Assembly (NCBI RefSeq): GCF_001425755.1
Contig: NZ_LMDH01000001.1
Coordinates: 647,308-711,307 of the forward strand
Origin: Aeromicrobium sp. Root344
GTDB lineage: Bacteria > Actinomycetota > Actinomycetes > Propionibacteriales > Nocardioidaceae
Length of the DNA stretch: 64,000 nucleotides
Reading direction: 5' to 3'
Under the pieces are notes generated by a model. The model was not told the origin of the DNA and did not search any database. It worked only from the letters and a program-made list of their open reading frames with translations. Of the stretch, positions 18,578 to 20,534 are shown piece after piece. The position numbers and the translations under genes were made by a program. Numbering within the stretch: position 1 is the stretch's first letter; every line of letters starts with the position of its first letter.

Positions 18578-19732
18578 ATGGATCTGGCGACGTTCGAGCA
18601 GCTGCTGTCCCCCGCGGGCCAGCTGTTGCTCGACGAGGTGGCGCAACGGGCCGGCGTCGAGTCGGACCTGGCGCTCGGCACCCGCCTGCGGAAGACGTAC
18701 GCCCCATCGCTCGTCGCGGCAGCCGTGACGCAGAACCACCTGCGCGGCAAGGCGGCGACCAAGTTCGGTGCCGACGCGGCGCGGATGTACTTCACGCACG
18801 ACGCGCTCGAGCAGTCGACGCGCATGTCCGTGGCCACCCATCGAGCCCACAGACTGGCTTCGACCGGCGCGACCAGCGCGATCGACCTCGGCTGCGGCAT
18901 CGGGGGCGACCTCGTGGCGCTGGCGCGAGCCGGGCTGCAGGTCCGCGGCGTCGAGCTGGATCCCGTACGCGCAGCGGTCGCGGCGGCCAACCTGCGAGCC
19001 CACGGGCTCGACGGCGAGGTCATCTGCGCCGACGCGCGCTCGGTCGACAGGCGGCGCGACGAGGTCGCCTTCATCGACCCAGCGCGCAGGGACGGCCGCG
19101 GTCGTACGTTCTCGACGTCCGACCTGCAGCCACCCTGGGACTGGGTGCGGGAGCTGCTCGCGGGGCGCGCCGTCGCCAAGCTGATGCCGGGCCTCGCGCA
19201 CGACGCGGTGCCGGCCGGCGTCGAGGCCGAGTGGGTCAGCGACGGGGGCAGCCTCGTCGAGGCGTGCCTGTGGGGCGCGCCATTCGCATCGGCGACGCGC
19301 AGGGCCACGGTGCTGCCGTCGGGCGCCGGGCTCGTGTCGACCGGTGAGCCCGTGGCGGTGGCCGATGTCGGGGCCTACCTCTACGAGCCCGACGACGCCG
19401 TCATCCGCGCCGGCCTCGTCAGCGAGCTCGCCGCGACGATCGGCGGCTGGCTGCCCGACGCCCACATCGCGTACGTCGCCTCGGACGGCGTGCACCCGAC
19501 GCCGCTGGCGCGGGGATTCCGGATCGTCGACGAGCTGCCGTTCAGGGAGAAGCCACTCAAGGCGGCGCTCCAGGTGCGGCGCGTCGGGACGCTGACGGTC
19601 AAGAAGCGCGGTGTCGACGTCGTGCCCGAGGAGCTGGTCCGCCGGCTCAAGCTCAAGGGCCCCAACACCGCGACGATCATCATGACCCGGGTCCTCGGCA
19701 ACGGCCGGGCCTACCTCGTCGAGCGCCTCTGA
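18578..19732 (+). CDS. SAM-dependent methyltransferase with THUMP-like C-terminal domain
   Basis: 384 residues. A helical N-terminal part (about 1-90) precedes a class I methyltransferase core with SAM motif AIDLGCGIGGDLVAL (about 99-113), the acidic GVELDP after strand 2, and the motif FIDPARR in place of a catalytic NPP. The C-terminal ~100 residues match the THUMP-like domain of actinobacterial proteins of this kind. RNA methylation is the likely role; the target is unknown. It diverges from groES. Confidence 0.85.
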   Translation: MDLATFEQLLSPAGQLLLDEVAQRAGVESDLALGTRLRKTYAPSLVAAAVTQNHLRGKAATKFGADAARMYFTHDALEQSTRMSVATHRAHRLASTGATSAIDLGCGIGGDLVALARAGLQVRGVELDPVRAAVAAANLRAHGLDGEVICADARSVDRRRDEVAFIDPARRDGRGRTFSTSDLQPPWDWVRELLAGRAVAKLMPGLAHDAVPAGVEAEWVSDGGSLVEACLWGAPFASATRRATVLPSGAGLVSTGEPVAVADVGAYLYEPDDAVIRAGLVSELAATIGGWLPDAHIAYVASDGVHPTPLARGFRIVDELPFREKPLKAALQVRRVGTLTVKKRGVDVVPEELVRRLKLKGPNTATIIMTRVLGNGRAYLVERL

Positions 19733-19736
19733 CGCA

Positions 19737-19801
19737 CCGAGATATGGATTCTCGTGCACCACAGACGGCCCTTTCGTGGTGCACCGGCATCCATATCTCG
19801 G
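19737..19801. repeat. 65-bp compound palindrome between the methyltransferase and pxpA
   Basis: Outer arms CCGAGATATGGAT (19737-19749) and ATCCATATCTCGG (19789-19801) pair perfectly. A 4x4 internal loop leads to perfect inner arms GTGCACCAC (19754-19762) and GTGGTGCAC (19776-19784) around a 13-base loop. The AT-containing outer arm stands out from the GC-rich surroundings. No T-run follows, so it looks more like a REP/MITE-type element than a standard terminator. Confidence 0.75.
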
Positions 19802-19817
19802 GGCATAGGCTGGCCGC

Positions 19818-20534
19818 ATGCGGATCGACCTGAACGCGGATCTCGGCGAGTCGTGGCCTCGGTGGGAGTCGGGTGAGGACGTCGCGCTGCTGGACGTCGT
19901 GACCAGCGCCAACGTGTGCTGCGGCGCCTACGCCGGAGACGCCGATCTCATGCGGGTGACGTGCGAGGCGGCGGTCGAGCGGGGCGTGGCGATCGGTGCC
20001 CAGGTCGGCTATCCCGACCGGGACAACTTCGGCCGGCTCCACCTCGACATGCCGTCCGACGAGCTCACCGGCGAGCTGCTGAGCCAGATCCTGCTGCTCG
20101 ACGAGATCGCCCGGGCGGCCGGCGGGGTCGTGGCGTACGTCAAGCCGCACGGCGCGCTCTACAACCGCATCGTCGACGACGACGTCCAGGCACAGGCGGT
20201 GGTCGACGCCCTCCAGGGTCTCGCGACACCGCTCCCCCTGCTCGGGTTGCCGGGCTCGGTGTCGCTGGCGATCGCCGAGGCGTGCGGCATCCCGATCATC
20301 CGCGAGGGCTTCGCCGACCGGGCCTACACGTCCGACGGACGGCTCGTCCCGCGCAGCGAGCCCGGCGCCGTGCTCGAGGATCCCGAAGCCGTCGCCGCCC
20401 AGGCCGTACGCCTGATGGAGCGGGTGTCGTCGGTCTGCGTGCACAGCGACAGCCCCGGCGCCCTCGCGCTGGCGCAGGCCGTACGCGCCGCGCTCGAGGC
20501 GCACGGAGCCGAGCTCACGAGCGTCATCGCGTGA
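19818..20534 (+). CDS. pxpA: 5-oxoprolinase subunit PxpA (LamB/YcsF family)
   Basis: The 238-residue LamB/YcsF protein starts with the signature MRIDLNADLGES and carries SANVCCGAYAGD, QVGYPD and YVKPHGALYN, the conserved active-site segments. With PxpB and PxpC it uses ATP to open 5-oxoproline (pyroglutamate), a damage product of glutamine and glutamate, to glutamate. It overlaps pxpB by 4 bases. Confidence 0.96.
   Translation: MRIDLNADLGESWPRWESGEDVALLDVVTSANVCCGAYAGDADLMRVTCEAAVERGVAIGAQVGYPDRDNFGRLHLDMPSDELTGELLSQILLLDEIARAAGGVVAYVKPHGALYNRIVDDDVQAQAVVDALQGLATPLPLLGLPGSVSLAIAEACGIPIIREGFADRAYTSDGRLVPRSEPGAVLEDPEAVAAQAVRLMERVSSVCVHSDSPGALALAQAVRAALEAHGAELTSVIA

Follow-up and report, generated by a model that had tools for sequence, protein, structure and literature searches.

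A dispersed family of gene-end palindromes in Aeromicrobium whose arms come in dialects that differ at orthologous sites

What kind of element is the 65-bp palindrome that lies between two genes in the window (the whole 64,000-nt stretch of Aeromicrobium DNA that was analysed), and why is it there? The original prediction described a compound palindrome with perfect outer (13-bp) and inner (9-bp) arms and a symmetric internal loop, situated in an 85-base gap between co-directional genes, and suggested either a mobile palindromic element (REP- or MITE-like) or a protein-binding site. The description of the anatomy and setting is borne out. The outer arms are complementary at 13/13 positions and the inner arms at 9/9, with a symmetric 4x4 internal loop, and the order along the element is ccgagatatggat, tctc, gtgcaccac, the 13-nt loop, gtggtgcac, cggc, atccatatctcgg; the intergenic gap is 19733-19817 (85 nt), and both flanking genes are on the + strand (Table 1). 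Among the 20 inverted repeats found in the window at the settings used, this palindrome is the first and the longest (29-nt arms, 86% complementary). The RNA fold of 19727-19811 (85 nt) has an energy of -44.2 kcal/mol (z -6.40), and 0/200 dinucleotide shuffles fold as well. The 65-bp palindrome is thus real and no artefact. Nothing in the window attains the gathering score of an Rfam family.

Table 1. The palindrome and its neighbours in the window, the dialects of the family, and the sites at which dialects differ between species. G000 is the genome of the window, G021 A. ginsengisoli, G010 A. massiliense and G024 Aeromicrobium sp. 9AM.
Feature	Position in window	Strand	Remarks
Whole palindromic element, dialect A copy A667k	19737-19801	.	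G000:C1:667044-667108
Left outer arm CCGAGATATGGAT	19737-19749	.	frame CCG[A/C]GATnTGG common to dialects A and B
Left half of unpaired symmetric internal loop (variable spacer)	19750-19753	.	
Left inner arm GTGCACCAC	19754-19762	.	dialect-A motif TGCACCAC
13-nt central loop	19763-19775	.	same length as in the 8 dialect-A copies of the genome, sequence unlike theirs
Right inner arm GTGGTGCAC	19776-19784	.	
Right half of internal loop	19785-19788	.	
Right outer arm ATCCATATCTCGG	19789-19801	.	
Upstream gene, methyltransferase with THUMP-like domain (PF18096, PF13649)	18578-19732	+	stop codon to element, 4 nt
Downstream gene, LamB/YcsF family (PF03746)	19818-20534	+	element to start codon, 16 nt
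Dialect A			G000, G021, G047, G024
Dialect B			G000, one copy in G024
Dialect C			G047; GATnTGGCCnCnGATCCACGTCG
Dialect D, longer			G024; ..GATCAACCGTT..
Dialect E			G009, one copy in G048; GATnTGGCCAGTTGTGGCCCGTT
Dialect F			G039, G023
Dialect H			G049
Two further dialects			A. massiliense
Site A267k			A; C in G047; D in G024
Site A596k			A, A, A; C in G047
Site A3045k			A; C
Site B1058k			B; A, A
Site B1059k			B; A, A, D
Site B1147k			B; D
Site B2096k			B; A; C|B chimera in G047; further interior in G024
Site B2527k			B; A
Site B2602k			B; A, A
Site B3324k			B; A; C; D

The palindrome is not a single copy. The chromosome of G000 contains at least 17 related hairpin-forming elements, eight of dialect A (arm CCGAGATnTGGAT-n5-TGCACCAC) and nine of dialect B (arm CCGCGATnTGGCGG-n4-ACCACCAC), which are of near-constant length (61-65 bp) and have the consensus outer frame CCGAGATnTGG..CCAnATCTCGG. 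The one-arm pattern GAGATATGGATnnnnGTGC, with up to 3 mismatches, matches 66 places in this genome (25 for the backward-read control). Sixteen of the 66 make eight +/- pairs exactly 42 bp apart, which are whole elements, and the remaining 50 are unpaired, 48 of them at 3 mismatches and only two below that. Sorted by mismatch, 15 of the 17 matches with at most 2 mismatches lie in paired elements and 48 of the 49 with 3 mismatches are unpaired, and the element hairpin is absent from all 15 unpaired arm matches that were folded. A covariance model built from the eight dialect-A elements finds 14 places in G000 at E below 1e-4, namely these eight and six more distant dialect-B elements (scoring covered 150 of the 2232 candidates from the first look, and two places at E ~7 were ignored). 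The pattern GATnTGG-N28-56-CCAnATC matches 17 forward places, 13 of which are family members, and adds three dialect-B copies; we treat the total of 17 as a lower bound. This last pattern over-counts, the element-like matches by eye being 13/17 in G000, 13/14 in G047, 5/12 in G049, 1/7 in G048 and 0/9 in G022. The backward-read control is lenient because it misses coding matches, and outside the four closest species many pattern matches are ordinary coding sequence. One copy, B2500k, has a tandem partial repeat of the left outer arm on its left side (L102, G000:C1:2500270-2500300), with CCGCCGCGATGTGGC present twice.

Most of the elements are directly 3' of gene stop codons. The 17 copies in G000 comprise 13 between convergent genes, four between co-directional genes (A26k, B1059k, the window copy A667k, and B2500k) and none between divergent genes. 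For 11 of the 17, the neighbours are convergent and both stop codons are 0-7 bp from a 71-73-bp unit. A596k and B3324k are also convergent, in that a long minus-strand frame that the gene finder overlooked stops 1 bp away from the unit, and B2500k has a downstream + strand ORF of 61 codons whose start is about 15 bp away. Against the background of 7 convergent pairs among 68 neighbouring gene pairs of the window, P is 9e-8 for at least 11/17 convergent copies and 2e-10 for at least 13/17, based on a rough, custom-made gene finder and on one window for the background. The seven convergent pairs of the window, three of which overlap, all lack the element, which is therefore not the usual terminator here; on the same grounds, we discard the idea that convergent genes in general have such a hairpin as their ordinary terminator. 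The window hairpin is strong, yet no T-run terminator-like site occurs in 19000-20500, in agreement with the T-run-free gap described originally, and this distinguishes it from an intrinsic T-run terminator.

The reading that we favour, and to which we give about an even chance, is that the elements are REP-like, RAYT-less, bidirectional 3'-end hairpins whose arms are read by a putative factor and whose dialects are replaced in place; the terminator function, the factor and the replacement mechanism are what we infer. The ~65-bp palindromes of a dispersed Aeromicrobium family would sit directly 3' of stop codons, mostly between convergent genes, where transcription from either side would produce the same strong hairpin, and since the hairpin is the same from either side, it could act as a 3'-end signal in both directions, one for each neighbour. 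It would terminate transcription without the help of a T-run, protect the 3' end, or do both. The arms would remain constant because the putative factor reads them, and the loop would be free to change. A change of dialect would begin with replacement of one arm from another copy (compare the half-and-half element of G047, below), and the second arm would follow, the route being either ectopic conversion or, while an imperfect palindrome is replicated, the use of one arm as template for the other. Template-switch copying of one palindrome arm on the other is a known mechanism. Set against a gene-end hairpin are the missing T-run, the position of the window copy and three others between co-directional genes, the seven convergent pairs of the window without an element, and the failure to find a factor for either binding or replacement.

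The resemblance to REP elements is one of position. REP elements, as outlined in PMC3733652, are short, scattered palindromes that lie downstream of genes, where ORFs converge or run in the same direction, and the Aeromicrobium elements are likewise dispersed extragenic palindromes behind genes, never between divergent ones. They are longer, however (61-65 bp, as compared with 20-40 bp for REP), and their copies number in the tens. With respect to the GTAG- and CGTC-tagged REPs and BIMEs, they differ in that no GTAG or CGTC tag is apparent by eye in the element consensus, no RAYT was found in the genus, and interiors differ at common sites. A linked REP-associated transposase, which the original prediction had raised, was not found: Y1_Tnp (PF01797) at E<=0.001 is found in 0/49 genomes of the genus, with the same search positive in 5/14 control genomes, and the link to RAYT is rejected on this basis.

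Across the genus, the family is patchy. At E<=0.1, model R1 matches 13 of 39 genomes (G000 included), all of them Aeromicrobium (25 of the 39 genomes are of this genus); the other 26 have no match, the matching genomes have from one to about eleven places, and 0/14 genomes from other families of the order match. Arm sequences are genome-specific (Table 1), and the core from GAT to ATC is mostly 57 or 58, with exceptions in length such as a shorter dialect-A copy in G024. Over 16 inner positions in 65 elements, arm-to-arm pairing reaches 0.77 for the two arms of one copy and 0.74 for arms taken from different copies with the same dialect letter, and drops to 0.37 for arms of different dialects. 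A wide contig scan with the strict dialect-A/common outer pattern yields 35 stretches (19 in Aeromicrobium and 16 scattered), which is near chance by rough arithmetic. In 196 genomes of the order, the general element pattern has 0-4 matches per genome outside the genus (controls 0-2), save in G125, and among the matches listed, those in other families resemble recurrent coding sequence; the elements may be present at a low level outside the genus. G125, from another genus of the same family, has seven matches to the general pattern and none in the controls. A possible partition of the dialects between origin and terminus (A near the contig ends, B in the middle) lost support when further B copies came to light, at 1147 kb and at 3324 kb. 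The titles and abstract openings covered by a literature search, and passages of PMC3733652, PMC1852404 and PMC2267715, describe no such elements in Aeromicrobium.

Comparison of the flanks of the 17 G000 sites with G021, G047 and G024 shows that the counterparts in relatives exist. An element is found in at least one of the three at 15 of the 17 sites, A26k and B2500k being the exceptions, although the match is to one flank only for A1140k in G021 and for B2090k, B1059k and B2096k in G024. The dialect differs at 10 of the 15 occupied sites (Table 1). Empty counterparts occur at five sites (A26k in G047, A267k in G021, A3825k in G024 and G049, B2602k in G021, and B3324k in G049), where no target-site duplication is visible and gain and loss are indistinguishable. 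In G024 the window's own site has a remnant, CCGAGATTCGG, and the B2500k site in G021 has an apparent right-arm remnant. At the window's site, the G021 element has a double change in the outer arm, from A-T to T-A, and A. massiliense has two copies. LamB/YcsF is present in 46 genomes, and the stretch upstream of it was inspected in 30 of these; dialect A is present in G000, G021 and G047, G024 has the remnant, G062 has a palindrome with arms that are D-like by eye, and the rest of the 30 have no visible element of the family, though some have other hairpins.

These comparisons bear on whether the palindrome might instead be non-autonomous and mobile (MITE- or REP-like), moved by an unrecognised transposase, with its placement at stop codons reflecting harmless insertion sites. 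MITEs are small non-coding inverted-repeat elements with a patchy distribution, and the Aeromicrobium elements fit this description. Their patchy copy number and the empty counterparts in G047, G021, G024 and G049 agree with mobility, as do the alike loops in A. massiliense and the three loci at which a gene is bracketed by two copies (see below). We nevertheless regard it as unlikely, given that no Y1_Tnp is found in 49 genomes, no target-site duplication is visible, the loops in G000 are unrelated (the last two being differences from MITEs as well), 15/17 sites are common to at least one relative, and the fit between two stop codons is tighter than harmless insertion needs. What survives of the REP/MITE-like suggestion is the many copies and their counterparts in relatives; what does not is the RAYT, and most of the compared sites are common to species with altered interiors.

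How the interiors change can be seen most directly at A596k. Here an odd right outer arm, CCATTTCTGGG, replaces the usual CCAnATCTCGG in G000, G021, G024 and G047, and this right arm (CCATTTCTGGGTGCGTCAG) is kept in G047 despite interior C, the interior in G000, G021 and G024 being A. The odd arm is common to four species, one of them with another interior, so interiors change inside a standing frame; judging from these sequences, the frame of A596k is inherited and the inside is not. At B2096k, the G047 element is half-and-half, with a C left arm; its right arm is the B arm seen in G000, and its loop resembles that of the G000 copy. The loops of 18 cross-dialect ortholog pairs are no more alike than those of 563 non-orthologous pairs (p 0.35), and those of 14 same-dialect ortholog pairs are more alike (p 0.002; pairs non-independent). 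Alike loops are a sign of recent copying. Within G000 the loops are unrelated (0.35 for the eight B copies vs 0.35 shuffled, 0.33 for the eight A copies vs 0.37), so that there is no sign of a single recent source from which whole interiors were copied. The loops of A. massiliense are alike (0.65 vs 0.33 shuffled, reached by 0/400 shuffles), those of G009 weakly so (0.40 vs 0.35, fraction 0.015), and G047 has one pair of copies with alike loops.

The element might alternatively be described as having two parts, a standing frame (CCGAGATnTGG...CCAnATCTCGG) and exchangeable palindromic interiors of ~43 bp that would overwrite each other arm by arm and have their own factors. Dialects would then compete for fixed gene-end addresses, giving concerted rewriting without transposition to new sites. 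We consider this possible, but hold it only tentatively.

For the reading as factor-read 3'-end hairpins, the relevant question is what is conserved. In 15 non-independent pairs from the same site and of the same dialect, identity is 368/390 (94.4%) for the outer arms, 233/240 (97.1%) for the inner arms, 105/150 (70%) for the spacer, and 105/195 (53.8%) for the loop. Between G000 and G021, four loops are identical at 32/52 positions and the four-fold sites of five neighbouring genes at 704/878 (80%; Fisher p 0.0025), although four-fold sites are GC-biased and their identity may be inflated. On these alignments, the arms are held and the loops turn over. In the 22 copies of dialect A, a copy's own arms pair no better than the arms of shuffled copies, which argues that pairing is not all that selection acts on. 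In dialect B (0.002) and dialect E (0.009; both uncorrected, 15 tests), the spacer does show copy-specific pairing. With pairing in B and E, and none that is copy-specific in A, sequence recognition and pairing are each supported, in different dialects.

A sequence-specific binding factor is favoured by arms that are conserved, loops that vary and a length that hardly changes, and to this extent the protein-binding site of the original prediction may stand, but a candidate protein was not found. The same features (conserved half-site motifs, near-constant total length, variable loop), together with the lack of copy-specific covariation in dialect A, are also what one would expect of a binding site in double-stranded DNA, in which two inverted bipartite half-sites at fixed spacing act as a roadblock or in nucleoid or chromosome organisation and the hairpin is incidental. 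This seems doubtful to us, because the elements are confined to gene ends, pairing is copy-specific in B and E, and there is no candidate protein.

Three loci have a single gene bracketed by two elements. In G000, a DUF559-type gene (L097:3209-4322) lies between two dialect-B copies, and the same locus is A,A in G021 and G047; in G049, the two flanks of this locus are 8 bp apart. By eye, the loops of the bracketing copies at L097:3209-4322 look alike when inverted; compared without gaps, B pairs reach an identity of no more than 0.58. In A. massiliense, a gene for a 223-aa membrane protein is bracketed at the site orthologous to that of the window (L099:3122-3968), and the two copies have a common flank of ~17-20 bp on each side. 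The third locus is in G047, with a 43-aa ORF between the C|B chimera and an A copy. As sequences, these arrangements suggest insertion at, or duplication of, elements. The DUF559-type gene was rejected as a general partner, as the element closest to its second match in G000 is ~12.8 kb away and searches of G009, G010, G023 and G048 give none at E<=1e-5, a threshold that also misses the G021 ortholog, so that absence in these four is not firm.

Bracketed genes also recall integron cassettes. An attC site consists of an outer arm, an unpaired spacer, an inner arm and a variable tip behind a stop codon, and dialect A has a comparable anatomy; attC-like recombination sites behind the stop codon of a gene that itself travels as a cassette would account for the three bracketed loci and for the 8-bp spacing of the DUF559 flanks in G049. 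We think this very improbable, as the elements are mostly single and scattered, with no arrays seen, the spacer of dialect E is largely paired, and the end sequences differ from those of attC. Integron integrase (TIGR02249) is above its curated cut-off in 0/49 genomes and in 0/14 controls, that is, with no positive control; its sub-cut-off matches are far below, and likewise occur in 13/14 controls.

Even less probable, to the point of being barely credible, is that the arms are DNA uptake signals, paired in inverted orientation within terminators and differing in dialect from species to species, as they do in Neisseria and Pasteurellaceae. According to passages of PMC1852404, paired uptake signals are inverted copies of a fixed motif between convergent genes and form bidirectional terminators, and both this placement and the species dialects are matched here. 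The Aeromicrobium elements, however, are few (17 copies vs hundreds or more) and lack a T-run, exact single motifs are rare, and the half-sites are long, so that the recognised unit would be ~25 bp.

Short palindromic repeats are often explained as having been spread by a transposase. Here, sites are common to species, both arms change together, and no RAYT was found, and the sets of orthologous sites offer material for work on the concerted evolution of dispersed hairpins. Should a factor indeed read the arms, these high-GC actinobacteria would possess a 3'-end signal that is sequence-specific and distinct from the T-run terminator, and the dialects would show co-evolution of the factor and its sites.

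Upstream of LamB/YcsF, other species have hairpins of different kinds. One, with arms GCGAGTGG.., is found at L084, L082, L071 and L072 (G046, G008, G013 and G055, respectively); by eye these have a similar central GACGTT..GACGGCGTGTC stretch, the strict pattern matches L084 only, and no Rfam family reaches threshold for this hairpin at the LamB/YcsF site. A further hairpin, GCGTGACGTTC..GAACGTCAC, occurs in four species at L087, L088, L089 and L090 (G006, G060, G045 and G007).
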